Assembly: GCA_009746045.1 (NCBI GenBank)
Contig: RPFO01000115.1
Span: 1,535,234-1,599,233, forward strand
Direction: 5' to 3'
DNA length: 64,000 bases
DNA from: Mesostigma viride
Taxonomy: Eukaryota; Streptophyta; Mesostigmatophyceae; Mesostigmatales; Mesostigmataceae
Positions 19,897 to 44,996 of this stretch are shown here, in pieces (within the stretch, counting starts at the first letter, position 1; each line of letters begins with the position of its first letter). Made by a program: the position numbers and the translations under genes. The notes under the pieces are model-generated. The model was given only the letters and a program-made list of their open reading frames with translations, made no database searches and was not told where the DNA came from.

Positions 19897-21937
19897 ATGA
19901 ATCCTCAAGAAATGCAGCCGCTAGGGCGGCTGAAAGAACGCGAAGGCTCGCAAGAGAGAAACTTCTCTCAGTATCCACCCCCGCACGTAGTGCCGCGCCA
20001 TGTGGGGCCTCAAGGCCATTATCGAGGCAACCCGGTGGAGGATTTTCAAGTTGGAGAGCCCGGGCGGCGCGCCGAAGGATGGTCAGAAGTACAAGGTTTG
20101 CTGGCTGCGGCGGCCTCCATGCAATACCCGCAAGGGTACCGGCAGCAGCACGTGGGCATGGGGGTGGTCAACGTGCCGCAGCACATGCCGTATGACGTGA
20201 ACATGCATGGGCAGGTGCCGCACCACTACCAGCCACAACAGGGCCATCTGCAGCAGCCGCTGCATGCGTCCCGTGGGCTGGATCAGGGCCAGGAGCGGCC
20301 AGATATGCTCCAGGGTGGCCGGCCGCTCCTGCGAGACCCCCGGCCAGAGCGCAGCCACGAGGAGATGGACATGGGCGGCTACTCCCGCTCACCGTCACCG
20401 TCCCCCCGCAGCCAAGCACACCACGCGCCGGGCATGCCCTACGCGGCGCCCAACGCGCCCTACCCCCCCGGCATGCCACCTGGCGCGCGCGCACACGAGC
20501 CCATGGAGCCAAGGAAAGGTCGCGCTGGCGCCGAGGAGGGCATGATGATGGGCATCCCGCAAGGGGGAAGGAAGAGCAGCAGCGGTGGCGGCATGGGCGA
20601 GGGGGGTCCAAAGTTGGTGGGGGGCATGCCACCTATGGCGGGTGATGAGGACAGGGACATCAAGATGGTCCCTGGCATGCCCACCGCGCGCACCGCAGGG
20701 TACCGCGGCATGGCCCCCGGGCTTTCCGGCCAGGAGTTGGCGCCATACCCTGGGCAGTACATTGGGGGGGGTGGCAGGGGGCCTGGGTCCATGCCCCCCT
20801 CCCCGACCGTCTCAGGGGGGGATCGCCTGGGCGCCTCCCACCCTGTCAGCCCCCTGGTCGGCCAGGGTGATGTCAGCATGGGCGTGGGCCGGTCGCCTTA
20901 CCTGCACTCGTCAGGTCATGGCGTGCCGATGCCAGGGTCCCTGGGGCACCGTGGCGGTCCTCCGCTGTCAGATGCCGAGTATGGCATGGCCCGCGGTGCC
21001 GCCCCCATGCCCCTGCCATCTGGTCTGTCGCCTCAACAGGCACCGCCGCAGCAGGGGGCGGGGCTCTACCCGCTGCAGGGTACGCGCGGTATGTCGGCGC
21101 AGGCACAGCCCTACTACCAGTCACCGCAACCAGCGCTGGCCTCGCAACCCCTTGTGGGCCAAGGTCAGCCCCGCCTCTCACGCAACAGCCGGCCGTCCCC
21201 GCAGGTGAACGAAGGGGGGGCGATCCAGCCCTCACGCGGCGGCAGGCGGCCAGCGCCCGATGAGCGTGCGCGCAGGCAGGAGGAGTATGCCGATGGGGAG
21301 GATAGTGACAGCGGGTGGTCTGGGGACCAAGGGGGACCAATCGGGGGGGGTGCGGGTGGGCAGGCCCCACCCGGCGCCCTGGCAAGCGTATCACCAGCGG
21401 CATCCATGCCGAGGGCCAAGGAGTGGCAAGCAGGTGGGGGGGGCAGCCCTGGGTTGCCACACCCACTTGGCGACGGTATGGCCCGACCTCTCAGCGCACC
21501 ATCACGGCCCCTGGCAGCGGACATGGATGTGGGCGGACACACAGGTGAATGGGGGGACGCGGGGGCATCCTCCGGCGCTGCCCATGGCAGTGCACCCAGC
21601 CACAGCCCGTCCGGCATGTGCGGAGCTTCCCCATCCCCCTCGCCTCCTTCCTCCCGTACTCCCTCGCCTCCCCCCTCCCCTGCTGCTGGTGAGAGCCCCC
21701 CCCCCGCCCCTCCTCCCGCGTGCACTGACGCAAGGGCTCCGGCCAGCGCAGCTGCGGGTGGCAGTGTCGGAGCGCTGGGGGAGAGAGCTCAGGGTGGAGC
21801 CGGCTCCGTTGCGGGGGATGCCCCCCTGGCGATCCCTGCCAGCAGCTGGTCAGACCCGGCGAGTCTCGCGCAAGAGGACGGGTCGGAGACGGAGTCGGAG
21901 CCCTCCGAATACGACGCAGACGAGGACGAGGGCGAGG
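19897..21937 (+). other. Exon 1 of the CHD-FYR gene: disordered N-terminus
   Basis: 680 residues rich in Pro, Gly, Met, Ser and Gln, from MNPQEMQPLGRL, with many RGG/PGM-like patches and an acidic end (SEYDADEDEGE). No folded domain is seen. The donor is taken at 21938 (gtgggtg), phase 1, because this joins in frame to a 24-base microexon at 22746-22769 (YEYLHNK) and then to 23532. That exon carries a basic helical segment (RVMALRRRALRGRVQ). Confidence 0.65.
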
Positions 21938-24900
21938 GTGGGTGCTGGTGCTTTGTGTAGGGTTGGGAAGTGGACGAGGACGAGAGCGACGGTGGGTGCG
22001 GGTGCTTTGTTTGGGGGTGGGAAATGGACGAGGTTGAGGGTGGGTGTTCTGTTCTGTTTGTGGTGGGAAGGGGTATGAGGGAGGTGGGGAAGGGGGAAGG
22101 GGGAAGGGGGAAGGGGGAAGGGGGAAGGGGGAAGGGGGAAGGGGGAAGGGGGAAGGGGGAAGGGGGAAGGGGGAAGGGGGAAGGGGGAAGGGGGAAGTGG
22201 GAAGGGGAAGGGGGAAGGGGGAAGGGGGAAGGCGGAAGGCGGAAGGCGGAAGGGGAAAGGGGGAGGGAGGGGGAGGGCGAGCGTGTGTGGGAGGGAAGAT
22301 GGGGGGCGGGAGGGCGGTAGAATACTTTGTAAGGTATCGCGTTCCATTTGTGCGTGTGTGCTCGCGGTTGCGCGTGGTCTGGCATTCCTCAGAGGAATCG
22401 GTATTCTTGAAAGTAGAGGTTGGGGTGGGTGGGTGGGTGGGTGGGTGGGTGGGTGGGTGGGTGGGTGGGTGGGTGGGTGGGTGGGTGGGTGGGTGGGTGG
22501 GTGGGTGGGTGGGTGGGTGGGTGGGTGGGTGGGTGGGTGGGTGGGTGGGTGGGTGGGTGGGTGGGTGGGTGGGTGGGTGGGTGGGTGGGTGGGTGGGTGG
22601 GTGGGTGGGTGGGTGGGTGGGTGGGTGGGTGGGTGGGCGAGGGTGGCGGGCTGATGTCGCTCAACTAGCGTGCTCCTGGTGGCATTGCAGTGTAGCTTTG
22701 CCAAGGTTCAGGTACTCTTGGGGCCAGGTGTCCACTTGGGGCCAGTCTATGAGTACCTGCACAACAAGGGTGAGAGCTCCTGTTACGGACATAGGAGCCG
22801 TCACAGCGTGGATACCAGCGCGGGATCTCGCTGTCCCTCCCAGCAGTATCTCACGGGGTTGTGGGGTGAAATCTGTTTTTTTTTTTTTTGTCGCGGTGCA
22901 CAAAGGATGCAGCAGAACATCAGTTGTTTGATCCCCCCCCCCCCCCTATTTTTCTTCTTCCCCACCTTTTATCCTTCCCCTGTCTTTTCTAACATCCTTT
23001 CTAACGTCTTTTCTTCTCCCTCCCCTCCCCTTGTTTCTGTTGTCGTTTTTATGTATTTTTCTTCAAAGAATCTTAGGACTTGTTTCTTCAAAAAATCTTA
23101 GGACATTATTGTGTGATTGCTGTTGTTTCCTCTGCCTTCATTCGGTCAACGCTTTCCGCCTGTTTGATAGTGACAACCAGCCAAGCGCTCTTTTTTCTCT
23201 ATCTTTTCCTCAATCCCCCCCACCCTTCCACCACCACCACCACCACGATCGGGCTATCCTGCACGCCTGAAGGGCATTGTGCGTTGTTCTGCCACCCTGA
23301 TGCGTCGTTGACCTCAGTGGTGCATCCAGCCTGCTTCCCCCCCCCCCCCCCCCCCCCTTCCTCCACCCTTGCCCTTCCATTGCCAGGCGCACCTTTCCCC
23401 CCGTTGATCTCCATTCTCACTTGTTTCAACGCGCGGACGACATGTCATTGTGTGGCTCACGAGTTGACACCTGTTCATGATGCACCACCACGGCATGGCA
23501 CCTGGCCATGATGCACCGCCTGCCCCCCCAGGCGGTGAGCTAGGGGACGTCTCGAAGCGCGTTATGGCGTTGCGACGGCGCGCGTTGCGTGGGCGCGTGC
23601 AGGGGCACTACTTGCGCTGCCACGAGCTATGCCACTCGCTGCTGCTGCGCTGGCGCACGTTGAAGAAGGTGAGGTGGCAGGAAGTAGGGGCACAGAAGCA
23701 TGGCCCGGGAGTAGCGCAAGGAAGCAGGGCAAGGAAGTAGTGCACAGAGTATGGCTGGTAATCGCCCATAGGGTGTATGTTCATTCATGTACGCAACCGC
23801 CGCTGGTCATTCATTCAGTCAAGGTAGGCTGTCACCCAGGCTGTTTTTACGTCCTTTCAGTACTCATCCGCAGCACATCTAATCACTTTCCCCTCTCTTT
23901 TCGTCATCCCCTGTTACTTGCGCCCCTTGCCACACAGGACCCTGTCGTGTATGTCCCCGCCCCGCCCGAGCAGTTGCTGGATGGCCTGCCGCCGGGGGAC
24001 ACCGCGACAGGGCTGCCCCACCCCAAGCAGATGCCCCACTTGCTGCCAGCCCCTGCCCCGCAGCCGCCGATGTTGGATCCTTACGGTTTTGAGGGGGTGC
24101 CGCCCCATGGGCTGGATGGGGGCCGGCCTCTACCTGTGCATGCGCATGGGCGGCCTTACCCCACCGACCCCACGGCCCACGCAGGGTACCCTGCATCCAG
24201 GGGGGGAGGGGCGCCCCACGGGGACGCATACCAGCAGCCATGGATGTACGGCGGCATGCAGCAGGGCATGCAGCCGGACGCGTATGGTGGCCGGTACCCA
24301 CACGCGGGCCGTGCGCCGCCAGGCATGCGGTCTGGGGGAGAGTTTTCAGGGCCGGCACCGCACCACCGCGGGGGGGGGCCGCCTCCGTATGCGGGTGGCG
24401 TGATCCCCGAGAAGCCCCGGGCCGCTGGTGCGTGCTGGCATGTTGAATCATAACAATACCGAAAGAGAGTCGACAAGGATTCAGAGTTTCTTCTGGCTGT
24501 GCCTTGCTTGATGATGGATGGGTGTACAAGGGTACATCCCCCCATGGGGTACATCCCCCCCGGTGGGGATGGCCAGCATCCTCACAGCGTCTCTGCGCAT
24601 GGTGCTTGTGCTCACGGTTAGGCGGTGCGAGGCAAGGTTGCGTGCATAGTGCACATAGTGCACATCGTGAGTCATCCATGCCACCGTGGTGCATGCCCAT
24701 GAACCTGTGTTCGGAGTCTCGCGTCTCCCTTGTTCTGCTCCTTGCTTCATTCCGCGGCTCGTGCACTTGCGATGCTTGCGACAGTGCGCATGCAACTAGG
24801 CTAGGTTGTCGATCTAGACCCTCGGCACGCATCGGTTCCCAGTGGGCCCGGTGTGCGGTCGCTGCTTCTGCACGCGTTGGGCCTGCATCGCTTGTCGTTG

Positions 24901-27900
24901 TGCCCTTTGTGTGTGGTACCTGGTCTAGCTGAACCACGGGGTGACGAAGATTGCCTCCATGTACGGGCCGTCCGACGGACCAGCACCGGTGCTGCTGGGT
25001 GGTGCGAGTGTGGTACTCATGGAGAGAGAGGGCGTCGGGTGGTGGGGTGGGAGGGGTGGGGGGAATGTAAGCATTTGGAATAGGTTTGTTCACGTTCCTG
25101 CGGCGAGCTTGCGTCCATGTGCGCGTGCATGCGTCCCTCAGCCCGGATGACCCGCGTCATGTGGCGCCCGAGCGAGAGGGAGGCGTTGCGACGTTCACTG
25201 CTCCTCTTCGGCCTCTACCAGTGGGAGAAGGTGAGCGAACGCGGGACCCATCCTTGTTGGCCCTTGTGCCTTCCTTCCTCCCTTTCGTATCGTCTCCTGT
25301 GGGGGTATGGTGTCACAATGTCCCCAGGCAGCCGCCTCTGCCACATGTCTGCCTACACCGCATGTCTGCCTACACAGCAACACGGTCTATGCCTTGCTGC
25401 CTTTTTCCTCAACTTGGGTGCTCATGCCTTTGGCTTGTCTAGAAGCCGACTGTCGAGTGCAAGGATCGTTCCGTTGAGATGCCAGTGGCTTCCATCCTGT
25501 CCAGTTGGTCCCTGGGGGAGTATCCGCATGCACAGCTGTCATCCCTGGGTTGCCCCCCACGACTGTATTTCTATTTCACCTTCTGCTATTACTGCCCACA
25601 GTGATAAATTAATTCTGCTATTATTTTATTACTGCCCACGTCGCCCAGCTATTCTTGGCTTCATGCCCGGCCCGGTCATGTATCCGTAGCTCGTGTCTCA
25701 TACATCCTCCCTTGGATGCACCATGCTCGAGGCCATGTCATCGCCTGTGCTGGACTGTAGCCTGCTTATTTACCTCAACGGCATTCCGTCAACTATTCGC
25801 CCCCACCTGCGTTTCCGGGGCCACGTCTCCCATATACCCCACTCCCCCCACTCCACCCCCACTCTGCCCACTCCACCCCCACTCCCCCCTCTCTCGCTCC
25901 AGGTGCGCCAAGGTATGATCAACCACCCGGCGAGCGTGCGCGGCCCCCGCCACTCGGTCGAGGACGTGGAGGCCTGCTGTTGGCAGTTTGTGCGCCGGTG
26001 CCGTGACCACGTGGACCCCCAGCTGGCGTCCTTCCTCGACAAGCACCTGGCGGCCGCCCCCCCGCCCCTCACCCTGGACCAGGCGGTCAGCGCGGCGGAC
26101 GCGGACGCCATCCGCAGCGTGGTCTCGGTGGAGGCGTGGGACAAAGTGGACTTGTTCGCGCAGGGATGGGTTCGGCGCCTGCGGCTCATGGAGAAGTGAG
26201 CCTGGGGGGAGGGAACGGGGGGGGGGGGGGGGGGGGATGGTAACAACTTGTTGTAACCACAGGTTGTTGTGACATGTTGAGGGACGGGGTGGGCCTGCGG
26301 TTGAGGGATGGGTTGGCGGACAGACCTCAAATGGGTGGCCCTGGATATTCCCTGGAAGCCAGGGGGGGGGGTTGTGCCTGACTGTTTCTTGATTGTTTCC
26401 CAGGATCTGCTGTTTGTGATGTGGAGTAGTCGGGGGCCAGGTATTTCTGAGCCGTGGACATGTTTGTGGGTGAAACCAGCAAATGCCTATATCCCATTTT
26501 CGCTAGTGAGGAACTAACCTTACGGGGCGCGATTGGCATGCACAGCATCCTGCTGTATTCACTAGGCGCTAGCTGTCCTAGCAGTTTCCTCTCCCAGCTG
26601 TGATCAATAGGAAAGCACTGCTGCGCCGCAGATGCAGGTTTAGGCAATTCCCTTGCTGCCAAGCTCTGGGTGCGACGCTACTGGTCGGGCATGATCCTTC
26701 GCATTGCATCTGCGCACATGGATGGGCGAGCAGATGTCTACAGCATCCCGTGCATGACGGACTGCCTGCTGCCACGACTGTCTGTTTGTGCCGCCGGCTT
26801 CCAGTACTCACCCTGGTCGCCGTTACTGCCTCCAGTGGCCACTGTTTGTTCTCCTGCCCCATTTGCGGTACCCTGGTGGTGCCTGTGGCCGGTCCCCTCT
26901 AGTTGCCTGCGCGTTCCCACACTTGTTTTTGTTGCCTGCGCGCGCCCACAATTGTTTTTGTTGCCTGCGCGTGCCCACACTTGTTTTTGTTGCCTGCGCG
27001 CGCCCACAATTGTTTTTGTTGCCTGCGCGCGCCCACAATTGTTTTTGTTGCCTGCGCGCGCCCACAATTGTTTTTGTTGCCTGCGCGTGCCCACACTTGT
27101 TTTTGTTGCCTGCGCGTGCCCACACTTGTTTTTGTTGCATGTGCGTTCCCACACTTGTTTTTGTTGCCTGCGCGCGCCCACAATTGTTTTTGTTGCCTGC
27201 GCGTGCCCACACTTGTTTTTGTTGCCTGCGCGTTCCCACACTTGTTTTTGTTGCCTGCGCGCGCCCACAATTGTTTTTGTTGCCTGCGCGTGCCCACACT
27301 TGTTTTTGTTGCCTGCGCGCGCCCACAATTGTTTTTGTTGCATGTGCGTTCCCACACTTGTTTTTGTTGCCTGCGCGCGCCCACAATTGTTTTTGTCGCC
27401 TGTGCGTGCCCACACTTGTTTTTGTTGCCTGCGCGTGCCCACACTTGTTTTTGTTGCCTGCGCGTGCCCAGCCTGTCGGAGGTGGTCAACTTTGTGCGGT
27501 ACCCAACCGCGCGCGAGAAAGTGCTGCAGTACATCTCGCTGGCCACCGAGAGCGGCAAGACCATGCTCGCTGACTGGTGGACGCCGCAGGTGGGGGACGG
27601 GGGCGTGTGGTACCGATGCCCTGTTGATGTGCACAGGAGGCTGTGTTCGTGTCCGTAACTGGTTTGTGGGGTGGCGACCGGGATGCGCGCAGGAGGCTCG
27701 TTTGTGCTCTGAATGTGTGATAGCGAGGTTGACATGCGCAGGAACTTGTCTGTGCTGTCATGGCGCAACCGTTGTCTCTTTGTGGGCAGGAGACTTTCTT
27801 GGTCCTCACCTTGCAGGCATCCCCGCATGAGCAGCCGCCCGTGCGTGGCGGCTCGGCCCCATGCATCCACCCCACGCATTGCCTTGGCCGCATGCTCTCT

Positions 27901-30900
27901 TTGGCTGCTTCTGTGTGGTGCGGAGAGGGGCCAGGGTATGCAGCAGCCTTCCCCTGTTTTGAAAATGCTACCAAAGAGAAGACTCGCTATCAACGAGACG
28001 ACCAGCGCTGTCTCTAAAGGGCCTGCAATCTTGCCAAACCTTGGTGTTTGTCAGCTGAGCCGCCTCGCGCTCTCCTGTCGATTTCGTCTCATAAAGATAA
28101 GGATGCCCGTGCCCATGCATCCATCGCACATGTTTTTGTGGGTGGTCCGAAACATAGCACTTTGAATGTTGCTGGTGCCTTCCTGCGCTGCTCTGCATGA
28201 TCGTCACACTTTAAGTGAGGGTGTAACTGGAAGCAATGACCTTGACGGTTGGAAGCTTATGTTGGGATGCTGGCACGGCATTTCGCCACGCAGCGCGTCT
28301 GCGGCCAGCCCCCAAACGTAGTGTTTTGTCCCTTGGTACATAATCGTCTGCGTGGCATGGTTCTTGTGCTTGTGTGCGTGACGTTACTCGTGTGAATGTG
28401 CTCATGTGCGTGACGTTGCTCGTGTGAATGTGCTTGTGTGCGTGACGTTGCTCGTGTGAATGTGCTTATGTGTGCGACTTTGCTCGTGTGAATGGGTTCA
28501 TCTGTGTGTGATGTTACTCCTGTGAATGTGCTTGTGTGCGCGATGTTGCTCGTGTGAATGTGCTCGTTTATCCGTATGTATGTCCTCGCGTCCCTGCCAG
28601 GTGGACGTCGCACTGCTAGAGGGCGTCCACAAGCACGGGTACGGCAGCTACGAGCCGATCCGAACCGACCCCGAGTTTGCGCCCGTGTTCGCAGCCACCG
28701 TCCGCAAGCACGGCAGCGGCACGCCCATGGATGGGGTGAGTCCTTGAGGCTGGTGGGCCGATTTTCGCCCACGAACATTGTCCTGGTTGAACAAGCGGCA
28801 TGAATGTCTTTAATTCTAGTGCGGCTCTGTTCACAGGGATCGTCTTTGTGCAGAGAGCATGCCCATGTACGTGGAGAATGGCTGTGATGCACGTACAAGT
28901 GCAGTTCACTCACGCAGTGGTCATTCTCCAACAAGGTTGGCATCCACACTGCGTGTGTCTCTGTTTGTGCACGTGCCCGTGTTGATGGGACCGCCATCGC
29001 CTCTGTTGTGCGGGCATCATGCTGATACATGGGTGTGTTTGGTAGCGTCGAACCTGCAGTGCTCGGCTGGGAGTCATCTGCCGCGAGTGTGCCTCCACCA
29101 TATAAGAGGGAATGGGGTGGGAGCGCTGTTGTGGGCCAGCCGTGCGGTGGCGTACGTGCTCGTGGCTGAATTACGGAAGTGTTATGGCAGAGTGACAAGG
29201 CAGGGTTGGCGGTGCGGTGGCTGCGCAGTACAGGAGGCGGATTGCCATGGTGGTAATAAGGGGACAGCGATCCTCTGGTAAAGACTTATACAGATGGGTG
29301 GCGAGCCGCCTTGCCATCTTCTCTGCTATTTGCGGCTCTAGTAACAGGCCCAGGGTCAAAGGCCCAGGGTGCGTAGGAGGCATCTGCCTCAGACCATGGT
29401 AGGGCGTCGCGGAACCTCGCCTCTGGCATGCCTCGTGACCTGCGGCTACACCAGTGAAGTGTTTGGGTATTGCCGTGGCTGACCATGTTTGGGTATTGCC
29501 GTGGCTGACCATGTGGTGAGTTCCATCATTCGCGCGGTGAACGTTCCTAAACAGAAAGAGCGGCATAGAACCCGCGATTGTTGTCATCAACGGTGCCAAC
29601 AGCTTCAACATATCTGTCTTGCCCACCCCACGCCCATCTTTTTGTCCGCCCCACGCCTATGGTCCCCCCCCCTCCGCACGCCGGCGGACACCAGCGCCGT
29701 AAGGGGAACCGCGCGAGTGACAAGCGGCAGAGCGAGGCGTCGGGCATGCGCGCGGATGAGGGGGAGGGAAGCCAGGGACATGGCCAGGGGTCCGAGGGCC
29801 ACCCCCATCCAGGCACTCCGGAGGTGAGGGGGGCGTGGCGCCGGAGGGCTATAGTATACTGCCATCTGCGTTGTGTGCTCTGCATGCGCGTGGCTTTTGT
29901 CAGCGGTGGTAGTGTGTGCTGGTGCTGCTCGACCGTGGTTGGGCACACGTGTGTTGTCTTGAGTGCAGTGTTTGTGATGTGCCGTTGCGCCTATGCCTGC
30001 CAGAGTGTTGCTGGCCTCGTCTTCTGTCGACCCTGCCGGTAGCGTAAAGCTGGCTACCGTCTTTTGACATTTTTAGAACGAACTAGCTTCTTGTGGCACT
30101 ACAGTACTAAACCCCACAACCAGTTTGTGTTCATTATTAACCTAGCTGCTTTCTTCTAAACGAAGAGCATGGGGGAGCTTTGGGGCCTATAAGGGCCTCC
30201 CCAGGCTCCATGGGCTCTTGTCTCCCAACGGCGGCCCAGGCCATTGTCGCTTGTATTGGTGGTCTTGAATGGGTGTTGTTCTTGGTCCAAGGTTCAAGGG
30301 ACCAAGAAGTTAATTGTCCCTATGAATGGCCCTCGGTGGTGGTGTCGGTTGGCTACCCAAGCAGGTGTCTGCACTCTCCTGCGCTTGCGTCATGCGTCCA
30401 CACTTAACCCAGTGTTGCGGCGAGGGCGGTGTTTTTGGCTGCAAGGCCAGGTTGATTGGTATCTCTTTGCATGCATGACCATGATGTCATGCTGGTGTTC
30501 ATCCGACCGGACATGCCCTCGTCTGCGGTGTGCACCCTGCAGGTGAAAGACGAGTTCCTCAGCTCCGGCGGTGGCGGCAGCAGCATCGCCGGCGAGTCGG
30601 TGTGGCCTAAGGCGGACGAGTTGACTCGTCGCGTCAAGTGGCTGGTGGATCATCTCATCCGCCTCGTGCAGCAGGTGCGGAGGTGGTGGATCAGACATTC
30701 TCGTGCAGCAGGTGCGGGGTGGTGGATCAGACATTCTCGTGCAGCAGGTGCGGAGGACCTGATGCTGGCCGCGCAAGAATGACTGATTGATGCTAGCTAC
30801 GCAGGTATGGCTGCTGGCTAGCCGCGCAGGTATGTGCGATGCAGGTACACAGCGCTGGCATTACGTCACGACTCATGCGCATGGCAGCACTCACTCATGC

Positions 30901-33900: not shown

Positions 33901-36900
33901 GACGGCGGCAAGGGCGTTCTGTCGCCGGTCACCGCAGAGGCCGCGGTCGAGGAGCCCGTGGTGGTGGTCAAGCGGCAGCCGCTGCCCCCAGGACGCAAGA
34001 AGAAACTTGCACCGGGCGAAGAGGCGGCGTCGGCGGCAGCCGCCACGCCCCACTTGACGTACGCGACGGCGCTCAAGCTGAACGAGCGGCTGGAGATGAT
34101 GGACATCCTGCGGCGGGCGGTGCGCATGTTCAAGGACGACTGGATGAACCGGGTGAGTTGGGTGCGGGGGTGGGGAGGGGGGAGGGGGCAAGCACCCGCG
34201 GGTTGGTGTGTGTGGGGGGGGGGTAGAAAATGGGGAGAGGGAGTACGGGAATATGGGAGAAAAGGGGTGGGTAAACAGAGGGGCGAGCGGTGGGAGTGAA
34301 GTGTGGATGAACGAGAATGAGTTGAGCACTGCCACTCTGGCATCTTTCAGGGGCCAGTCACCTACAGTGGCCCTGTGCAGCAGCATGCAGCTGCTTTGTT
34401 CGAGTCTGAGCGACCGCCTTGGATGATGGAGACTGGATGGTGCACCACCCCACCAGCAAGCGGATCAACCCACACGCCTAGACCGCAAACCCTAAGCCAA
34501 CAGAGTCAACCCAAAATCCGAAAGGCTGCTCCTCAAATGTATACAGCTCCTGTGGCCTTGCAACTTGCCCCCCGTGTGGTGCTTCCATCTGGACCCTGCC
34601 CATGCTCCCATCACACCGCGCCCCCCCTCTTGCCTGTTGTGCCCCTCCTCTTGCCTTGTTGTGCCCCTCCTCTTGCCTTGCCATGCCCCTCCCTCCCCCT
34701 CGCCTCGCCTTGCCTCATGCCCCCTCGGCCTTGCCTCGTGCCCCCCTTGGTTTGCCTTATGCCTGCTTGTCTTGTGTCGTGCCCCCCTTGCCTGGCGTCG
34801 TCATCCGCCACTCGTCACACCGCGTCCCCAGCCCCTGATCCTGCCCAAGGGCCACGAGCTGCCCTCCTGGTGGCGCATCGGCCTGCACGACAAAGGGCTA
34901 GTGAAAGGCACGCTCAAGCTCGGGGTCAAGGGCTGGGAAGCGCTCGAGATCGACCCGAGCCTGCCCTTCCAGGCCACGCTGCTGGAGCTCAGGGAGCAGT
35001 GGCGCGCGGGGGCAGGGGGCAGCAGCCAGCAGGCCAACGCGAACCGAGCGGCGGCCCCACTGGACGTGGACGGCCGGTTTTGCGACGCGGACAGTGACCC
35101 TGGCGGTGCCGGCAGCAAGCAAGGCACTGGAATGCCTTCGGGCGAAGCAGGGGGGGAGCCGGGTGGCCTGCATGCCGGCGAGTCTCCGCAGCCACCCGCG
35201 AGAGGCATGAGCCTGCCACCTGCCTCGATCACGCCATTGACGTCACCCACCCCCCCGGTGGCCCCGACAGGGCGTGGCCGTGGCCGTGCGAGGGCCATCG
35301 TGCAGCCGACAGGCCCCCCCGGCGCGCCCGAGTACCCGTGCATGCCCACCTCCAAGACGCTCCTCAAGCGGCTCAAGTACCTGACGTCCTTCTTCAAACG
35401 CCAGCTGGCGCGCATGAAGGTGGGCAAAGGGGGGATGTGTGGAGAGACGAGGCTACCCGAGGACACGGCTGCTGCCTTGGATCCCACGCAGAAGGTTACG
35501 ACTCCACTCGTGCGTGTGCCTCTGTGTTCTGTCCTCAGATGGTATATGCCTCCCGGCCAGGCGTCACCCGGCTCAAACCGGCTCAGCGCTGGGCTGGCAA
35601 CGCAAATGGCCATGCATAGGTCGGGGAGTCATGGCCACTTCGCCTTCATGGTGGGGTGGTCGTGGTTTATGTGGCGTGTAGAAGCCAAAGTGTCTGGGAT
35701 ACCGCTTTGTCATGCCAGCTGTCCGCAATGACTGTTTGGGGAAATAAATGTCTTGCCCCACAGAGCCACCCGCCCACTCAGCATGTGCTCAGGTCAGGGG
35801 ATTAATACTTAGGTCCTCCCAGGTGGCCTGCAGGCTGCCGGCCCCTCTCCCCCTACGTTTGCCCGGCTGAACAAATGCTGTCGATCTACGTGGCCCTGCT
35901 CCTGCCTTTGCTGTCCCGTCGCCATTTTTTGTGGCCGCTGCCTCCGCTCTGCAAGGCAAACTGGCTTGCCCGTTATTTGGCAAGGCCGCTAGGCCTATGC
36001 TACTCGCTAGTCTGTACCTTTGCAAGGCAACCACACTTGCCTGTAGTGCACCAAGGTCCCAGCGTAGCCAACGCCCATGAACTCACGTGCACATGGGCCG
36101 CCCCACATTGGCTGCGCAACGCTGCATGCCCCCCTGCCTGCATTCTCGACAGAACAAGCGCCGCAGGAAGGAGGCAGCTTTCTCGGACGGTGAAGGGGAG
36201 GGCGAGTTCATGTTTGCACCTGTCATCGGACGCGGGCGTGGGCGTGGGCGCGGGCGTGGGCGCGGGAGGGGCCGTGGGCGTGGGCGCGCCAGCAAGCGCG
36301 CGCGTCTGGGCCGGCTCTCGTTCGGTGTCCCTGTGGACGAGTTTGGGGAAGGGGACGCGGCCATGGCGGGGGGGGAGGAGTACGCGCCTCCCACCGCGCG
36401 GGTGGGGAGAGGCGGGAAGGTGATCATGGCGCGTGGGGGCGGCGCAGGCCGTCCTGGCGGGGCATCGATGGGTCCCAGGAGCCACGGCATTGTCCAGGCA
36501 GGTCTTTTCGTGGCCTGTTGGTGGTTGCGTGGCCTCCTGTTTTGTGAGTTTGTTGCCTGCTGATGTGTGCGGGTGTTCCAGAATCAGCCTACCCTAGTGA
36601 CTTGCGTGCAGGTTTTCAGAAGTGGCCTAGCGATTTGTGTGCAGGAGGTGATGTGCGGCGTGGGGCTGATGGCCCGCCCTGCATCGTGCGCCATGGTCGT
36701 TGTGGTGCAAAGCACCAGGGTGGTTGGCTGGGGGTGGAAGGGGAGACAGCGGGGGGGTGCATGATCGGTTGGGGAAGGTGGGACCCGGGGACGGCTAGGC
36801 TGCAATGGCTGACAAGCCGCAAAATCCAGTAGCCTTTTTGCATCCCTTTGAAAAACAGCAAATTTACTGCCACGTCTGGCACCCGCGATACTGCCTCATC

Positions 36901-39900
36901 ATGAGTTAGATAGCATAGTCAAATTGCCCCAGGTCAAGGGATGCCATTGGCATGCGTTTTCCCATCACTATGTATTGGCAGAATAAACAATACCAGGCGG
37001 ACAGACAGCCTGAACACCCAGAGCAGGCTTGTAGTATTCGCTTGCGATTGTTTTGCGCGGGGCTACTCAATTGAGACACATTTGTTGGCCTGCATGTCTC
37101 ATGTTCGAAATGCAGCTGCCATTTTTCTACCACCCAACTGATTGCCAGGTTAGCACTTGACGTTGCTTGTCATGAATTGTACCATCATGACTAACTACCC
37201 CAGGGTCATCCTCACCATAAAAGACAAGGACAAAGCGCTTGCTGGCTGCAGGGGCTCAACTTACCGAAAGAGTTGAATGCTAGCCAAATCCACGACCTAG
37301 AATAGGGTCGTCTATATTTATTCACCTCCGCGATGGTACGCAGACAGCATAGCCAGGCAAGCAGATGAAGGCATAGATGAAGGTATAGACACCAGATAAC
37401 AGAGCCGCAAAAACGCTCATTAGCACAGGGACATGGAGCTAAGGAAACGAACACCGCGGATACAAGTTGGGTTCGCACATTCGGTATCCCCTTCCCATAG
37501 GTAGCGGCGAGGTTGATAAAATGCAACAGCGGGCCGATGTCCACGGGGCACACATCAATACGTCAACACCCTGCACAAGAAAATTTTGATCTTCCAACAG
37601 TTGGATTGACGCCGACTAGACGTACCCAAGCTCAGCATCCACGTCAGCGATAGCCGTCCCTAACGTCCCCGCTCTATGCCCAGGTGAAGAGATGGACTCC
37701 CCAACAGTTTACGTGTCCGACTGGACAATTACCGCGGGATTTAAGGAGGGGAAAAACTTGATCCATGGTCTCCTAACGCCACCACTCGTGTATGCGTCCG
37801 CAGCTGCCAAGCCCAGAGCAAAAGTGGCGCCAACAGCTGCTGCTCCGACAAGGAATTGGCGTTTCGTTCTCCGCGACATCCCTACCATAATGCGCAATCA
37901 ATTAGTGAGCATTTCCTTCCCAACTTAAAACAAATTAGCCTCCATAGGCTGACCCGAACACCGTCGATCAAACTTCGGATAAAGTGATTTGAAGGATGCC
38001 GAGAATTCCGGACTTGCGATGGCGTAGAATTTCATTTCCTTCCAACCGTCTCGGCGTTCCATAGCCTGCGATTGGTCAAAACTGACTGTGACGCATGGCG
38101 GATCCCGTTGCTCTCGTGACGCATGGCGTACGGCACGAATACGGCTGTATCTGCCTGCTGAAATGGCAGCATAAAATGCGCAAGTCCTGAACTCGTACCG
38201 TACTTACGCACTGCCCTTTAATTTTCCCGCGTGTCGCTCACCAGACGCCGCGCCCTTGGCTGGCGCCTCGTGCTTCCCGCCTCCCGGGCTTTCGTGCCAC
38301 CAAATTTGCCTGCCAAGCCCTGTGGCGGCAATTTTTTCGTGAAATGGAGCTTGTGCAGTCCCGCAGTTGGTCATACACTAATGGTGTACCGGTAATGCTT
38401 TTGGAATTAGTAACTACACGGTGAAGGCTTCATCTTAGTCCGTGTTGCTAGCGTTTTACGTTTTCTGTATCTTGGTAGGGGCGGGATGCCCTGCTCCTCG
38501 TCGCCGATGATGCCCCATCTCCTGCTCCTCGTTGCCGAGGATGCCCCATGACGCATGGCTGGATGGCATTTGCCGTGGTACCCTTGCCAGCGTTGGGATG
38601 CGTTCGTGGCCACGGGCGCGATGTTTGGATGCAGGGCCCAGAGCATGGAGTTCATGTGTAAGGGGGGGCAGCCTCGGGTGACTGTGTATGCGCTTGTGTG
38701 TGCTTGTGTGTGTGCACTGGCATCCTCGCACGCTTGGAAGCCGTCGCATGTGTTGCACTCAGGTGTGCGCTAGGTGGGTACCCCCTAAGTGCTTGCACTG
38801 ATCCCGGGCTCTTTCCTTGTGCCATCGTGGCATGGAGCGCGCCTCCCTCTGCCGCCATCCCGTGTCATGACGCCGCACATTTCGGGCGCCGGCACGCTTA
38901 CCTCTGCCATTCCATGTGTGCATCACTTCGCCCCTATCTGAAAATTTTGCTGTTTGTTCAAAATCCGTGCGCTACACGGTGCCAGGTTGTCGTGCGGCGC
39001 GGCGCGGACGGGGGCGTCTCGCTACCGCTGCACGTCACCGACGGTCTCTTCCTCGAGCGGCTGGGCACCGTGGATAGTGACCGCCCGGCGTTCCATAGTG
39101 ACCGGCACATCTTCCCTGTCGGGTTCCTCTCGCGCTGCGAGTACGACAGCGTGCTGCCTTCCGGCACGCGCTGCTGGTACCTGAACGAGATCGTGGACCG
39201 GCCAGGTGGCATTGCGCCGGTGTTCCGAGTCACCCCTCTGGATGCCCCCGACATCACGGTGAGCCCCTCCCTCCCATACCCACCCACGGTGCCGTCGTCT
39301 AGAAACAGGGATAGGCCAGCCCACGGCTCCAGCCATCAAATTCCCGCCCTGCCTGGTCCCAGCCGTTATGAGGTGCTGCACAGAGTGTCCACCCCTGTTC
39401 AGTCCCACTCTGCCTGGTTTCAGCTCGTCTCAACCCCCCCACCTGGTTTCGCCCGTTGAAGACGGACCCACTGCCGTATCGCCCGGCTTTCTCTTCTCTG
39501 CCACGAGCCCTGCCGTACCGCCCGGCTTTCTCTTCTCTTCCATGAGCCCTGCCGTACCGCCCGGCTTTCTCTACTCTTCCATGAGCCCTGCCGTATCGCC
39601 TGGCTTTCTCTTCTCTTCCATGAGCCCTGCCGTACCGCCCGGCTTTCTCTTCTCTTCCATGAGCCCTGCCGTACCGCCCGGCTTTCTCTTCTCTTCCATG
39701 AGCCCTGCGGTACCGCCCGGCTTTCTCTTCTCTTCCATGAGCCCTGCCGTACCGCCCGGCTTTCTCTTCTCTTCCATGAGCCCTGCCGTACCGCCCGGCT
39801 TTCTCTTCTCTTCCATGAGCCCTGCCGTACCGCCCGGCTTTCTCTTCTCTTCCATGAGCCCTGCCGTACCGCCCGGCTTTCTCTTCTCTTCCATGAGCCC

Positions 39901-42900
39901 TGCCGTACCGCCCGGCTTTCTCTTCTCTTCCATGAGCCCTGCCGTACCGCCCGGCTTTCTCTTCTCTTCCATGAGCCCTGCCGTACCGCCCGGCTTTCTC
40001 TTCTCTTCCATGAGCCCTGCCGTACCGCCCGGCTTTCTCTTCTCTTCCATGAGCCCTGCCGTACCGCCCGGCTTTCTCTTCTCTTCCATGAGCCCTGCCG
40101 TACCGCCCGGCTTTCTCTTCTCTTCCATGAGCCCTGCCGTACCGCCCGGCTTTCTCTTCTCTTCCATGAGCCCTGCCGTATCGCCCGGCTTTCTCTTCTC
40201 TTCCATGAGCCCTGCCGTACCGCCCGGCTTTCTCTTCTCTTCCATGAGCCCTGCCGTACCGCCCGGCTTTCTCTTCTCTTCCATGAGCCCTGCCGTACCG
40301 CCCGGCTTTCTCTTCTCTTCCATGAGCCCTGCCCAGTCGTCTTCTGTCCGGCTGGCTCGCTTGACGAGGACAACCGCCACCATGGGACACTCGCTGTGTG
40401 GCAGGGAGTCAGTTCCCTTCCCTCACGTTGCCCCCTTCCCCTGCGTGCCGCCATGGCTTCGGGCTCTGGCCAAGGCACCGGCCTCCCCATTACTCCCATC
40501 TGCCCGGCTGACTCCGCCTCCCCCACCTTCCCTCTCCGCGCCGCTTTCGCAGAACATGGCTGACTGGATGCACGTTTCCCTCTGTCGACGCCCGTGTCAT
40601 GTGTGTGTTCGCGCACGCACGCGTGAATGTCCTACCCTGGACATGCTTTGCGTCCTCCCCTCTACGCGTGCCTGCGCGCGGGTGTGTGGTTGCTACGTGC
40701 CACTTGGTGCCGTCTGCAGGTGGAGCACTCCACGCCACATGGCGCCTGGGCCGAGGTGCAGCGGCAGGTCAAGCGCACACAAGGCCTGGACACAGGGGAG
40801 GTATGGGCACGCACCCTGTGGCTCCCTCCCCCCTTGCTGCAAGGGCCATGGGCAAGTGGCGCCCGTGGGGCACATGCCCCCTCGGCTCTTTGTCGCATGT
40901 TGCAGTGCGCCCAGGTGCCTTCCGGTTGATGTCGTCCACCGCGGCATCCCGTGTCCATGCCTCCTGAAAAACTTGCGAATATCGAAGCACTAAATTTGTT
41001 TCCATGGATGGTAAAATTGATGTGTGTGTCTGCATGTGGACTTGTCGTCAAGCCTTTCTGTCTTTACGTCCTTGTCTCTACGTCCGGTCATGGACACTTG
41101 TTGGCCCTCATCGGTGGCGGCACAAATGCGAGTGTCGGCTTGCTGTCCTGGGACCCACTCCCGCCTGCTGGGTATCATGGCTACTAGTTGTGTTCCCTAT
41201 TTTTTATCTGCCAGGTTGAGAGGGGGGCGCGCTCCTTGCGTGTGCCGAGAATGGCAGGATGGCAGCGAATGTGGGAAGGGGAGTAGGAAGTCAAGTCATA
41301 GAACATGTTGCCTTGTTTCATGGTGTACAGACCATCTACCGGAGCATCTGATGGTTATGTTGATGAGGGGTGGGAAACCAGAGTTGGCAAACATGACCCG
41401 TGTGCAGGTTGGTAAAGGCGGTGTGTCTGTTTCCCACTATTTCAGCGGCTGCACTATCTACCATGTTTGTGTTTGTGTGTCTGGGGTGGGGGTGGGGTGG
41501 GCAAGGGGAGAGATGTGCAAGTTGCCCAGAATACTGTAGGGGAAGAGGACTGCAGTAGGGCATCTAGACCAGGACCCTATTCGACAATCCGCCCATTCAT
41601 GCGGTGTTGTTTGGCTGCCAGCATTTTGCTCACGCGTCATGGAACGTCGGCGCCCATTTCTGGTCTGTCCCTATGGTGTCTGACTGTTGGATTCTGCCTG
41701 TTGGTTTGTCTCGGGGCCTTATCCCGTGGCGATGGGGATTACTGCTGCCGCACGCCACCAGGTGGACGTGGACGGCATGCACATGTTTGGCCTCTCGCAC
41801 CCGCTGGTCTCCAAGCTCATCGAGGTATTACCTCGTGGGGAAGGGGCAGCTGTGTGCGGTTGGGTGTTTGCCTGGCCATCTAACGCACATCACTGTGCTT
41901 ATGGCCTCACAACTAGACGCCCGGTCTGCAAACTTCCTGCCTCGAACCAAGACGCAGCGCAGCCCTGTCATGGCATGCACACGACACGGTTGGCTGTGCA
42001 CGCATAGGACCAGTGGTTGCGTGGTTGCGGTTCATGCACACGGCCATATGGCAGAGGGCTCCGCATGCGCCCCGCGCTCGGATGCCCCTTTGTTCCCAAT
42101 CGTTGCACGGTTGGCGCTGTTGGGTAGCGATGCGGCAGGATATTCATGGGGGGAGTGGATGGCGTTGACCACTCCCCCCCCCACATCGCAGGCAGCTGGT
42201 AGCAGGTAGCATCCGTCTGTTTACTCCGTTGCAAATGGCCAAACTTTCCTGATGTTGTCACACACTGTGCTGGGTCTGAAACTGGCCGCGTGAGCACGCA
42301 TCGACGTGCCTCCCCCCTACAGCACGCTGCCCACTGCATGCGGTCCCGCATGCTGCATGGCACCCATGCTTGCCTCCCCCCTGTCTGTCCCTCACATCCT
42401 GATCCCAATGGAGCACAGCTGACGACCTCTTGCATGTTTTGCAGCAGATTGCCAGGGACTACGCGGTCCAGCTGGCCAGCCATATCGATAGGAACTTGAA
42501 ACAACCATGCTGCTCCGATGTGCTTTTCGGCCCCGCTGGTCGGATAGTCAATGATGTGCGTGCTCCTTGCCCTCTCCTTACGCATGTGGACCGGATGTCA
42601 TCTGTCTGTGGACCGCGCCTGCGTCCCCCTTCGCGTGAGCAGAGCCTGCCTGGCGTGGAGCAACTGAGCGCATACCGACCTGAGCTCTCCTTCTCGCGGT
42701 GGGTAGTGGCAGGGTTAGGAGGATGGGTTAGAAGAAGGATAGGACGGTGGGTGGTAGCGAGGATAGGAAATGGGTAAACAAAGTTTGGTAGGGCAGGTTA
42801 ATTGATGGATGGAAGGTGAGCGGTGGCAAGGATAGGAGGGCAGGTCAAGACAAGGATAGAAGTGCCCTTTGATAATACGAGTGGCTGGCTGGACAGGCAT

Positions 42901-44996
42901 GTAGATTCCAAAGAAGCACACATGGGCAGGGAAAATGGAAAATGGCTGTGTGGGCAGGCCGCCCCTCAATCGGGTGCCCTATGGTATCATAACCCCATCA
43001 TTAGGGATGTCTCTAATAACGGTGTTTCTAGAGCTCTCTTTCTTTCCACCGGCAACATTGCGGTAGCTTGTATGGCTGCGTGCCCGTAAGGACTATTAAC
43101 CACGAGAGGCAGTGGCAACCAGGCACTCAACGATGCGATGCATGGCTCGAACATGTATCGGCGATCTGCTGATGGTTGCCGGTACTTGTAACCATACTAT
43201 GCAGTAGATAAATATGAGCATGTCACAGATTAATATGAGCAGGACAAAATTGGTATCTGTGGGTCTTGATTATGGGGTTTTCGTGCTGGCCCATGTGTCC
43301 CTTCTTTGTCACAACTCATGGACCACCATCCCCTGTGTTCATCATCCATGTCTCTCTTCTTTGCACTCTCCGCGTGCCATGGGGTCACCACCATCGTCCT
43401 TCTCGCCGCAGGTTCTGCACGCGCATGACCCCCACACGGACGGAGGACGGGGAGGACGTTGTGGTGGCTGACGTGCAGCTGCCAGGTGGCGCCGGTCAGG
43501 ACTGGGAGGCGGACCCCCTGGATGGCACCGCAGGCAGGCTCCCTGGGGGTGACCGCGGCCAAGCCACGGAGGACGAGGACGAGGACGGGATGGCTGCGGG
43601 TAAGGAGACCAAGGGGCACAGGATGGACGCGGCCGGTGGCCAGGCCAAGCCCCGCGGTGGCACGAAGTCTCCCGGCAAGAACCAGGAGGGTGCGGGTGGC
43701 AGCCGTAAAGGCCAGGACACTGGCAGTGGCAAGGACAAAGAGGCCCTGGGTAGGTCCCAAGAGCGCGAGTCGGAGGAGGAAGGGGAGGAGCCGACCGAAG
43801 AAGAGGAAGCAGAGGAGGAGGACGAGGACGAGGACGAGGACGAGGAGGAGGAAGGCCTTCGGGCGCCGCGCCGAGGTACCCGTGGGGAGGGTCAGGGCGG
43901 GCGGGCTGCATTTGAAGAGGAGTCAGAGACTGAGTCCAAGGCAGCTGACGAAGAGATGGAGGACGAGGGGGATGAAGGCAGGGAGGGCGAGGACGAGCAA
44001 GGGGCTGGCGACGAGGACGACGAGGAAGAGGAAGAGGACGAGGACGAGGACGAGGATGAGGGCAAGCATGAGGATGCTCCAGAGACTGAGGAGATGGAGG
44101 AAGAGGAGGAGGAGGGGCACGAGCCGGGGGTCAGCGAGGAGGGGGAGAGTGGCGATGATGCGGGCACTGCCGCTGAAGAGGAGGATTACGAGGAGGAAGA
44201 CGAGGAGGAGCCTGTGTCTTCGCAGGATAAGCCAGTGGAGGTAGATTCTGCGGAGCCAAGCGATGGTGATGCGGACCGAGAGTTGGACTATCAAGAGGAG
44301 GAGGAGGACGAGGAGGAGGAAGAGGAGGCAAGTCACCGTGGTGATGGCAGCTCTCATTCCGACCTTGGGCTGCGCAGCGGGGGTGAGGGGTATGAGTCAG
44401 GGTCCGGTGCTGAGGAGGCAGGACGAGGCCCGGCAGGTGGTCGCTACGAGTACGCGTCCGGTGCCGAAGGTGAGGGCGACGACAGCGAGTTTGAAGGGGA
44501 TGCGCGCCGGCGTGGCCGGTACGACCCCAGCGAGGCGAGCGAGTACGGCCGTGCACAGGGGGATGGCTACGGCTCGAGCGATGCGGAGCATGCGACCGAG
44601 GAGGGAGCCACGGAGGAAGGGGAGGAGGAAGAGGCGTTTGAGGAGGACGACTACGACGAGGAGGGTGGCAAGGCGAGCCACGGGGATGAGATGGAGGAGG
44701 GCGAGGAGGGTGAGGGGCGATATGAGGAGGAGGAGGAGGATCGGACAGGCGAGGATGAGGAAGAGGGCGAGGAAGCAGAAGGCGACGAGGATAACGATGA
44801 GGATGACGGTGGGGACTATGAATATGACCAGGGTGCATCGCGGAGGGGAGGCGGCAGCACAGAAGATGTGGAGGAGGAAGGCGAGGACCAGGACGAGGAA
44901 GGGGAGGAATACGATGAGGGGGACGAAGGCGAGGAGGGGGAGGAGGGTGACCACATGGAGGAGTCTGCAGAGGAAGACGAGGAGGACGATGAATGA
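19897..44996 (+). CDS. Large chromatin protein: CHD6-9-type post-ATPase region fused to FYRN-FYRC
   Basis: Plus-strand gene of about 22 exons and 2,420 residues. Junctions I place in phase: 19897-21937, 22746-22769, 23532-23668, 23938-24427, 25142-25230, 25903-26195, 27472-27589, 28601-28735, 29695-29823, 30543-30674, 31464-31532, (31906-31927?), about 32388-32491, 33275-33338, 33778-34152, 34832-35419, 36153 to about 36500, 38986-39258, 40720-40800, 41762-41824, 42445-42555(?), 43412-44996. Order of parts: Pro/Gly/Met-rich disordered N-terminus; CHD-type SANT-SLIDE region; WPKADEL helix; WTQRERLELL SANT-like block; CxCxxC motif; second WW...HDK block; RG repeats; FYRN; FYRC; acidic tail. It likely acts in the nucleus on nucleosomal DNA or histones. 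No ATPase or chromodomain is seen. The start codon is inferred. Unresolved boundaries: the exons near 31.9-32.4 kb, the 3' end of the exon near 36.5 kb, and the junction before 43412. Confidence 0.75.
22083..22260 (+). repeat. (GGGGGAA)n tract
   Basis: About 25 copies of a seven-base unit, degrading at the right end to GGCGGAA. Lies in intron 1 of the CHD-FYR gene. Confidence 0.9.
22421..22636 (+). repeat. (GGGT)54 array
   Basis: A pure tetranucleotide array of about 216 bases on the coding strand of intron 1. It is an uninterrupted G-quadruplex-forming sequence in transcript sense. Confidence 0.95.
23938..24427 (+). other. Exon 4 of the CHD-FYR gene
   Basis: Starts at GAC after cacacag and reads DPVVYVPAPPEQLLDG, then Pro/Gly/Tyr/His/Met-rich sequence to EKPRAA. 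The donor at 24428 (gtgcgtg) leaves phase 1, which joins in frame to 25142 (A-RMTRVMWRPSE). Confidence 0.7.
26196..27471 (+). other. Intron 6 filled by a 29-bp minisatellite
   Basis: A 1,276-base GT-AG intron. The direct join 26195 to 27472 restores AAC and keeps the frame, so open frames through the repeat are not coding. Confidence 0.75.
26903..27471 (+). repeat. 29-bp minisatellite, about 19 copies
   Basis: The unit reads ttgcctgcgcgcgcccacaa then ttgtttttg, with alternating variants (gcgcgcccacaa, gcgtgcccacac, gcgttcccacac). The last, partial unit supplies the splice acceptor of the next exon. Open in several frames on both strands (CFCCLRVPT; NKNKCGHAQ), which is an artefact of the repeat. 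Confidence 0.9.
28376..28575 (+). repeat. Imperfect about 30-bp tandem repeats in intron 7
   Basis: Six or seven diverged copies of a unit like gtgtgcgtgacgttgctcgt followed by gtgaatgtgct, just upstream of exon 8. Confidence 0.75.
29695..31532 (+). other. Exons 9-11 of the CHD-FYR gene: linker and helices
   Basis: 29695-29823 is a charged linker (RRKGNRASDKRQSEAS). 30543-30674 reads ESVWPKADELTRRVKWLVDH, matching the W-P-x-x-x-x-L-x-x-R-x-x-x-L pattern of CHD6-9 after the first SANT-SLIDE region. 31464-31532 reads EQELARREARKRQEGAKQAA, a charged helix like the one preceding the next block in CHD6-9. All are in phase 0. Confidence 0.65.
30661..30760 (+). repeat. Tandem triplication of a splice donor
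   Basis: The segment cgtgcagcaggtgcgg is repeated at 36-37 base spacing, so potential donors lie at 30675, 30712 and 30748. Only 30675 keeps the frame to 31464. Confidence 0.75.
31906..33338 (+). other. SANT-like block (exons about 12-14)
   Basis: The exon ending at 32491 reads PWTQRERLELLRGLTSMG...NGSINWKPLKDA, equivalent to the W-N-R-R-E-x-x-x-F block of CHD6-9 with its later W and basic helix. 33275-33338 continues CGLQKRSDASMEACFQALQA, equivalent to the L-x-K-K-x-D-E-S-L-E block. The donor at 32492 (phase 2) and acceptor at 33274 restore GCC. The 5' limit of the first exon (32388 or earlier; the acidic DDDALRLDNDD reading upstream may be included) and a 22-base exon at 31906 are uncertain. 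Confidence 0.6.
33015..33245 (+). repeat. Minisatellite (28-41 bp units) in an intron
   Basis: Six copies of a unit containing cacatgcccccacggccctt and atgctcaca, the later ones extended by cactattgtgcg. Lies in the intron before the exon at 33275. Confidence 0.85.
33778..35419 (+). other. Cys motif and second CHD-type WW block (exons 15-16)
   Basis: 33778-34152 carries a Cys-rich mini-motif HAASCQCIICKQRRRK, which resembles the H-x-x-x-C-x-C-x-x-C motif of plant VAL/HSI2 proteins, and ends with ALKLNERLEMMDILRRAVRM. 34832-35419 reads HELPSWWRIGLHDKGLVKGT followed by LKLGVKGWEALEIDPSLPF. This is the counterpart of the second L-P-x-W-W...H-D-x-x-L-L-x-G-x-x-x-x-G...D-P-x-L-x-F block of CHD6-9. 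The rest is a low-complexity linker with a basic end (LLKRLKYLTSFFKRQLARMK). Confidence 0.7.
36153..36501 (+). other. Exon 17 of the CHD-FYR gene: RG-repeat segment
   Basis: Begins NKRRRKEAAF after gacag. It contains a run of alternating Arg-Gly (about 11 RG pairs), encoded by a GGGCGT/GGGCGC repeat, then Gly-rich sequence. The RG run could bind nucleic acid like an extended AT-hook/RGG region. The 3' boundary is unresolved: a GT donor at 36502 leaves phase 1, while a GC donor at 36498 would leave the phase 0 needed for the FYRN exon. Confidence 0.5.
36502..38985 (+). other. Long intron or missing-exon stretch before FYRN
   Basis: About 2.5 kb, the longest stretch of the gene without a confident exon. 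A segment near 36645-36719 has an acceptor and a donor and reads GDVRRGADGPP in one frame, echoing VVVRRGADGG at the start of the FYRN exon. It does not join in phase to it. Confidence 0.45.
38986..39258 (+). other. FYRN domain exon
   Basis: 91 codons, phase 0 at both ends, after gccag and before gtgagcc. Key segments: HVTDGLFLERLGTVDSDRPA, FHSDRHIFPVGFLSRCEYDS, TRCWYLNEIVDRPGGIAPVF and RVTPLDAPDIT. The L-G-x-V/I...D-R-x-x-F-H...I-F-P-V-G-F-x-S and C-x-Y-x-x-E-I patterns define FYRN. In MLL/trithorax, TBRG1 and plant ATX proteins FYRN pairs with FYRC into one fold. Confidence 0.9.
39475..40332 (+). repeat. 39-bp minisatellite, about 22 copies
   Basis: The unit contains cccggctttctcttctcttc and catgagccctgccgtac, nearly homogeneous, in the intron between the FYRN and FYRC exons. 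Because 39 is divisible by three it stays open in four frames (for example GFLFSSMSPAVPP on plus, EEKRKPGGTAGLM on minus). None is supported as coding. Confidence 0.95.
40720..41824 (+). other. FYRC domain, two exons
   Basis: 40720-40800 reads VEHSTPHGAWAEVQRQVK to GE. 41762-41824 reads VDVDGMHMFGLSHPLVSKLI-E. Both are phase 0 with consensus splice sites. The S-P-x-x-A-W-x-x-V and G-x-x-M-F-G-L-x-x-P-x-V-x-x-L-I-E patterns are diagnostic of FYRC. The domain directly follows FYRN, as in trithorax-type proteins, so the two would form one module. Confidence 0.85.
42445..42555 (+). other. Probable exon after FYRC
   Basis: Starts after ttgcag in phase 0 and reads QIARDYAVQLASHIDRNLKQ, with a possible donor at 42556. 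This donor leaves phase 0, while the final exon at 43412 needs phase 2, so either the boundary or an extra exon is missing. Confidence 0.4.
43412..44996 (+). other. Terminal exon of the CHD-FYR gene: acidic tail
   Basis: 528 codons plus stop, after gccgcag. It opens FCTRMTPTRTEDGEDVVVAD, passes through a mixed basic/Gly stretch, then becomes dominated by Glu, Asp and Gly with occasional Arg/Tyr, ending EESAEEDEEDDE and TGA. Such tails bind histones or basic proteins in chromatin factors such as nucleolin. Purine-rich GAG/GAC codons create shadow frames of Arg/Thr and of Pro/Leu on the opposite strand. Confidence 0.7.

Follow-up and report, generated by a model that had tools for sequence, protein, structure and literature searches.

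Results

A CHD-FYR gene on the plus strand

The window, a 64,000-nucleotide stretch of the Mesostigma viride genome, carries a plus-strand gene whose predicted protein appears to be the DNA-binding half of a CHD7-type chromatin remodeler joined to a FYR module, without a motor. In an exon model built from the sequence, 21 exons (22691-44996) run in one frame throughout and are preceded by an N-terminal exon from 19897; these exons are presumably transcribed and spliced as modelled. They are listed here with the evidence for each, P0001 to P0008 being database proteins discussed below.

19897-21937, plus strand: exon 1, Pro/Gly/Ser-rich, low-complexity N-terminal region; open frame 19828-21960, with candidate start and 3′ junction
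22691-22769, 23532-23668, 23938-24427, plus strand: exons 2-4, N-terminal region without known domain; phase-coherent, GT-AG, no Pfam match
25142-25230, 25903-26195, plus strand: exons 5-6, SANT-like block WRPSEREALRRSLLLFGLYQWEK and the stretch following it; weak (profile E 0.89, short match to P0002)
27472-27589, 28601-28735, plus strand: exons 7-8, SLIDE-like first WW block ADWWTPQVDVALLEGVHKHGYGSYEPIRTDPEF; PF23588 E 7.9e-9, CHD1 chains E 0.019, alignment
29695-29823, plus strand: exon 9, low-complexity linker; phase-coherent exon
30543-30674, 31464-31532, 32388-32491, 33275-33338, plus strand: exons 10-13, WP block and HTH_CHD6-9 tri-helical domain; PF23078 E 7.5e-5, under the Pfam cut-off, and alignment with P0001, P0002 and P0005-P0008
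33778-34152, plus strand: exon 14, cysteine cluster CQCIICKQRRR plus the helical block preceding the second WW block; exon model, alignment
34832-35419, plus strand: exon 15, the second WW block, LPSWWRIGLHDKGLVKGTLKLGVKGWEALEIDPSLPF, with the MPTSKTLLKRLKYL block; a 37-aa stretch is 51% identical to P0001, profile E 1.2e-5, alignment
36153-36497, plus strand: exon 16, basic RG-rich linker with GC donor; exon model
38986-39258, plus strand: exon 17, FYRN domain; PF05964 E 4e-14 (spliced), 6.6e-14 (as ORF)
40720-40800, 41762-41824, 42445-42555, plus strand: exons 18-20, FYRC domain; PF05965 E 1.1e-14
42643-42698, plus strand: exon 21, SLPGVEQLSAYRPELSFS; phase-coherent, by eye like LPGSDECERY of P0006, yet not aligned to it in the multiple alignment
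43412-44996, plus strand: exon 22, long acidic tail rich in Asp/Glu; stop TGA at 44994-44996, no Pfam match

Three tandem arrays lie in introns of the gene, at 26902-27470 (a 29-bp unit repeated 19.6 times, ending beside the exon 7 acceptor), 39471-40333 (a 39-bp unit, 22.1 times) and 22423-22637 (GGGT, 53.8 times). Elsewhere in the window are a DsbA-like thioredoxin domain in a single open frame (60790-61416, plus strand; PF01323 E 1.9e-18), a DDE_Tnp_4 transposase fragment (58037-58405, minus strand; E 2.2e-20) and an RNA recognition motif in another open frame (16355-17425, minus strand; E 3.3e-7).

Between exons 2 and 22, 19 of the 20 introns are GT-AG; the remaining one, from exon 16 to exon 17, is GC-AG and, at 2488 bases, is the longest of the model. 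Because the splice sites were picked by hand, in frame, from the sequence, phase coherence is supporting evidence only, weaker than an unbiased test. The GC contents of the three codon positions in exons 5-21, 0.70, 0.52 and 0.84, differ from the intron value of 0.57 in the way expected for coding sequence. In exon 1 (0.75/0.61/0.72) the coding signal is fainter than in the majority of later exons, and the placement of the putative start ATG at 19897 and of the exon 1-2 junction is uncertain; an acceptor-like site can be seen by eye immediately 5′ of that ATG. Every one of the 21 exons from 22691 to 44996 has an open frame and intact splice dinucleotides, and most have raised third-position GC, which argues against a decaying pseudogene of a lost CHD-FYR remodeler. 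That reading could draw on the missing motor and on the high divergence from relatives described below, and we consider it very improbable.

Domain content and order

Read in exon order, the predicted protein presents a SANT-like block, a SLIDE-like WW block, a WP block, HTH_CHD6-9, a second WW block, FYRN, FYRC and an acidic tail. The motifs quoted in a preliminary description of this DNA all recur on the plus strand in the order given there: FGLYQWEK (exon 5, 25142-25230), ADWW / VDVALLEGVHKHGYGSYEPIRTDPEF (exons 7-8), VWPKADELTRRVK (exon 10), PWTQRERLELL (exon 12), KRSDASMEACF (exon 13) and LPSWWRIGLHDKGLVKG (exon 15), with FYRN, FYRC and the acidic tail at the C-terminus. Profile searches on the spliced protein, which the same description had proposed, returned FYRC (Pfam E 1.1e-14), FYRN (E 4e-14) and HTH_CHD1_Hrp3 (E 7.9e-9, above its cut-off), but HTH_CHD6-9 (E 7.5e-5, 23.0 bits against a cut-off of 27, collinear with P0001 and P0006) and Myb (E 5.7e-4) fell under theirs. 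Pfam scans of exons 1-22 gave no chromodomain, no SNF2 ATPase or helicase C domain and no BRK match; exon 1 (19897-21957) and the acidic tail had no Pfam match at E <= 1. The exon 14 motif CQCIICKQRRR adjoins basic residues and might form a metal site, and no Pfam match falls there.

A profile of ten class III CHDs was run over ORFs from all six frames, in the window and in the preceding 30 kb (E <= 10). Seven of the ten matches listed lie on the plus strand at 25-39 kb, all of them post-ATPase, and in genomic order they follow the profile; three reach significance by themselves (8.3e-9, 1.7e-6, 1.2e-5) and four have E 0.38-3.8, the WP and HTH exons scoring 0.38 and 3.2 only. The three others are out of order: one on the minus strand (E 2, profile 409-442) and two upstream (E 5.7, profile 207-249; E 7.4, profile 2120-2182). 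In a multiple alignment with class III CHDs the SLIDE-like, WP, HTH and second WW blocks are in register, as is a WPKDK-like block for P0001 and two animal CHDs, and the SANT-like block is out of register. The collinear matches, the domain hits and the alignment bear out the class III (CHD6-9-type) post-ATPase architecture assigned earlier.

The protein thus has a SANT-SLIDE-like module, of which the SLIDE-like part is carried by PF23588 and the alignment and the SANT-like part, which is weak, by the profile score (E 0.89) and the short P0002 match. In a single-sequence search the first WW block matched the CHD1 chains 2xb0 and 3ted at E 0.019 only. FYRN and FYRC are adjacent and together match the TBRG1 chain 2wzo (E 1e-15, the best PDB match), a KMT2D chain coming next (E 0.056). 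The predicted fold of the FYRN exon alone had a mean pLDDT of 37.2 and is left aside.

The CHD-FYR fusion in databases

A first homology search, which scored the 7967 candidates sharing most words, found two proteins: P0001, a class III CHD without FYR whose label 'Phypoly' we take to mean Physarum, and P0002 from Pyropia vietnamensis. With the post-ATPase part of P0002 as query (7978 candidates scored), nine proteins were found at E <= 0.001, namely five CHD-FYR fusions and four animal CHDs. Since P0003-P0006 were missed by the first search and found by the second, the negatives of the first are weak. The FYR part alone as query gave nothing at E <= 0.001 among 533 candidates.

All five fusions, P0002-P0006, join chromodomains, an SNF2 ATPase, HTH_CHD6-9, FYRN and FYRC; those of the red algal genus Pyropia are P0002 (MMPV_007438) and P0003 (I4F81_012890). 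Domains of P0001 and P0002 were scanned directly, and those of P0003-P0006 and the animal CHDs come from precomputed annotation. BRK is absent from P0002 (scan) and P0003-P0006 (precomputed domains); P0007-P0010 carry PF07533, which we take to be BRK. The FYR region of the window gene is 29-34% identical to those of P0002-P0006, and its divergence from relatives is high.

These proteins correct the earlier statement that no described protein joining the two was known, at least as far as databases go; our literature search, limited to open-licence papers, found no paper on the fusion. The view that class III C-termini are mainly animal was likewise too narrow, as P0001 and the Pyropia proteins have them. 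The CHD-FYR fusion itself is therefore known, with a motor, and because it exists elsewhere in that form, it is the missing motor that sets the window gene apart as unusual.

The same relatives bear on the integrity of the gene model. A CHD post-ATPase gene ending at exon 16 and a separate FYR gene (exons 17-22) might have been joined artificially, and the junction does combine a non-canonical GC donor with the longest intron. Yet it is in frame, P0002 and P0006 share the domain order, and the distance from the second WW block to FYRN is similar (285 aa in the window gene, 261 in P0006, 344 in P0002), so that two adjacent genes are a decidedly unlikely explanation.

Searches for the missing motor

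With the class III CHD profile, neither the window nor the preceding 30 kb gave a convincing ATPase block, and the only match close to where the profile has its chromodomain end was a stray one (E 5.7). Neither stretch contains any N. Class III CHDs compared by tblastn with 50 kb 5′ of the gene and with the window 3′ of it produced only weak matches, the best at E 0.036. In the 440-Mb genome, 64 matches to PF00176 (SNF2) were listed, on 30 contigs, and none of the 64 lies on C1913, the 1.66-Mb contig of the gene. The reported absence of chromodomain and helicase motifs from the window is thus corroborated, and the upstream SNF2 exon that had been named as a refutation was looked for over 30 kb without a convincing match. 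A motor further upstream in the same gene was rejected on this evidence.

An alternative is an ordinary full-length CHD-FYR gene with ATPase exons that escaped detection or that the assembly put in the wrong place. Five of five fusions found do have a motor, and the acceptor-like site just 5′ of the ATG leaves room for an upstream exon. SNF2 matching moreover treats each exon separately, and the matches listed lack some of the ATPase exons that belong to a motor gene on contig C1457 (below). The continuous sequence and the lack of any listed SNF2 match on the contig weigh against this explanation, as do the SNF2 loci of the genome itself. P0006 shares 60.5-70.4% identity with nine class III ATPases over 470-494 aa; the SNF2 loci compared with it, which cover parts of 24 of the 30 contigs with matches, reach at most 49.0% over more than 100 aligned residues, the maximum being CHD1-like C1868, and up to 56.2% in shorter loci, over 32 aa. 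We judge a missed ATPase to be unlikely.

Several loci were considered as the missing motor and rejected on their motifs: C1868 reads CHD1-like by its ILRFGAEELF brace, C1402 and C1107 read CHD3-like by PHD-like stretches and LKWGTDELF, and C1635 reads ISWI-like. For FYRN, the window gene is the only match in the genome among those listed at E <= 0.001. Genome searches for FYRC and HTH_CHD6-9 (PF23078) missed even the intron-split copies of the window and so say nothing on other copies. A genome-wide chromodomain search scored 150 of 1379 candidates, many with identical scores, as would presumably be expected of chromovirus-like elements.

A separate class-III-type motor gene

Contig C1457 carries a divergent class-III-type CHD motor gene, separate from the window gene. 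Two chromodomains and the SNF2 N-lobe lie within one exon and are accompanied by further ATPase exons, a brace INNLLKKGAY (profile E 0.0021), an FW..LP stretch (E 0.016) and a first WW block (profile E 7.3e-6; PF23588 E 0.0082, under the cut-off). Five pieces, of 18-140 aa, align with P0006 at 40-66% identity.

In a tree with five other SNF2 genes of the genome, the C1457 ATPase pieces group with class III CHDs (100/99), on a very long branch (2.84) marked unsure by the tree tool; the CHD-FYR clade coheres at 99/100 without C1457, which falls outside it. The tree gives C1457 no firm place within class III and so neither shows nor excludes a common CHD-FYR ancestor of the two genes. In about 15 kb after the first WW block of C1457 no second WW block or FYR was found, the best profile match being E 0.75, at the WP block. 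The profile should reveal a second WW block or FYRN like those of the window (E 1.2e-5 and 8.3e-9), but an equally diverged HTH could be missed, since that of the window scores only E 3.2. A run of exactly 5000 N lies inside the motor gene (L050, 2060-7059). The idea that C1457 is simply the missing first half was rejected: a first WW block is present in C1457 as well, which makes the two proteins overlap.

Discussion

The reading we favour, with confidence a little above even, is that the window gene is a class III CHD-FYR relative without chromodomain-ATPase, acting as an adaptor whose most economical partner is the C1457 motor. The predicted protein would be related to full-length class III CHD-FYR proteins such as those of Pyropia, with a low-complexity N-terminus replacing the chromodomain-ATPase, and would most likely be non-enzymatic. 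DNA or nucleosomes may be the target of the SANT-SLIDE module, HTH_CHD6-9 and the second WW block, with further contacts to nucleic acids and histones perhaps made by the RG-rich linker and the acidic tail; the FYR module may dock a partner, for which the divergent motor encoded on C1457 would be the most economical candidate. The most economical history would be a CHD-FYR gene that lost its motor, perhaps after duplication, while a diverged class III motor was kept at C1457.

The separate C1457 gene fits, without proving, a division of labour between motor and DNA or partner binding. A split remodeler, as raised in the preliminary description, thus gains circumstantial support, but simple fission fits less well than duplication followed by complementary loss, because C1457 also keeps the first WW block. 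In a more specific and rather doubtful version, an ancestral chromodomain-ATPase-SANT-SLIDE-HTH-FYR gene was duplicated, C1457 lost the C-terminal half and the window gene lost the motor, the two now forming a trans-split, two-subunit enzyme.

The gene might instead encode a motor-independent regulator, a stand-alone DNA or nucleosome reader with no tie to C1457, whose FYR module recruits transcription factors or histone modifiers, or which competes with remodelers for linker DNA. FYR is known in non-remodelers, and the best PDB matches, TBRG1 and then KMT2D, accord with this; the first WW block is found in both the window gene and C1457, so each could engage DNA alone. Against it stand the motor in cis in all five relatives found with this architecture and the one FYRN match among those listed for the genome. 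We hold this alternative to be possible but not probable.

FYR is usually found in histone-methylation proteins. CHD remodelers are known to carry their motor in cis with DNA-binding and targeting domains (PMC13360762). A lineage that had separated the motor from these domains would, through nature's own cut, offer a test of which functions depend on a physical link. The database fusions join FYR to a class III remodeler outside animals, at the place of the animal BRK domains.

In TBRG1/Niam (2wzo) and KMT2/MLL, FYRN and FYRC are adjacent as one module, as in the window gene, and TBRG1 is the closest solved structure by sequence; to our knowledge these and other FYR proteins are without a CHD-type DNA-binding half. 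Niam/TBRG1 is reported to associate with INO80 and B-WICH proteins, but no binding of Myst2 by the FY-containing C-terminal half was seen (PMC5557939), so that FYR docking to remodelers is not demonstrated there.

Animal subfamily III is characterized by chromodomains, SNF2, SANT and BRK (PMC13360762). The class III CHDs (animal CHD6-9 and P0001) have the post-ATPase blocks in the same order as the window gene, including the WPKDK-like MPTSKTLLKRLKYL block and the HDK-type second WW, but also an ATPase and chromodomain, neither of which was found in the window gene, where FYR occupies the C-terminal place that BRK domains have in animal class III members. The Pyropia-type fusions, P0002-P0006, differ in holding chromodomains and SNF2 ATPase, none found in the window gene, in the same polypeptide; they share with it the order SANT, WW, WP, HTH_CHD6-9, second WW, FYRN and FYRC, and P0002 and P0006 have a linker to FYRN of similar length.
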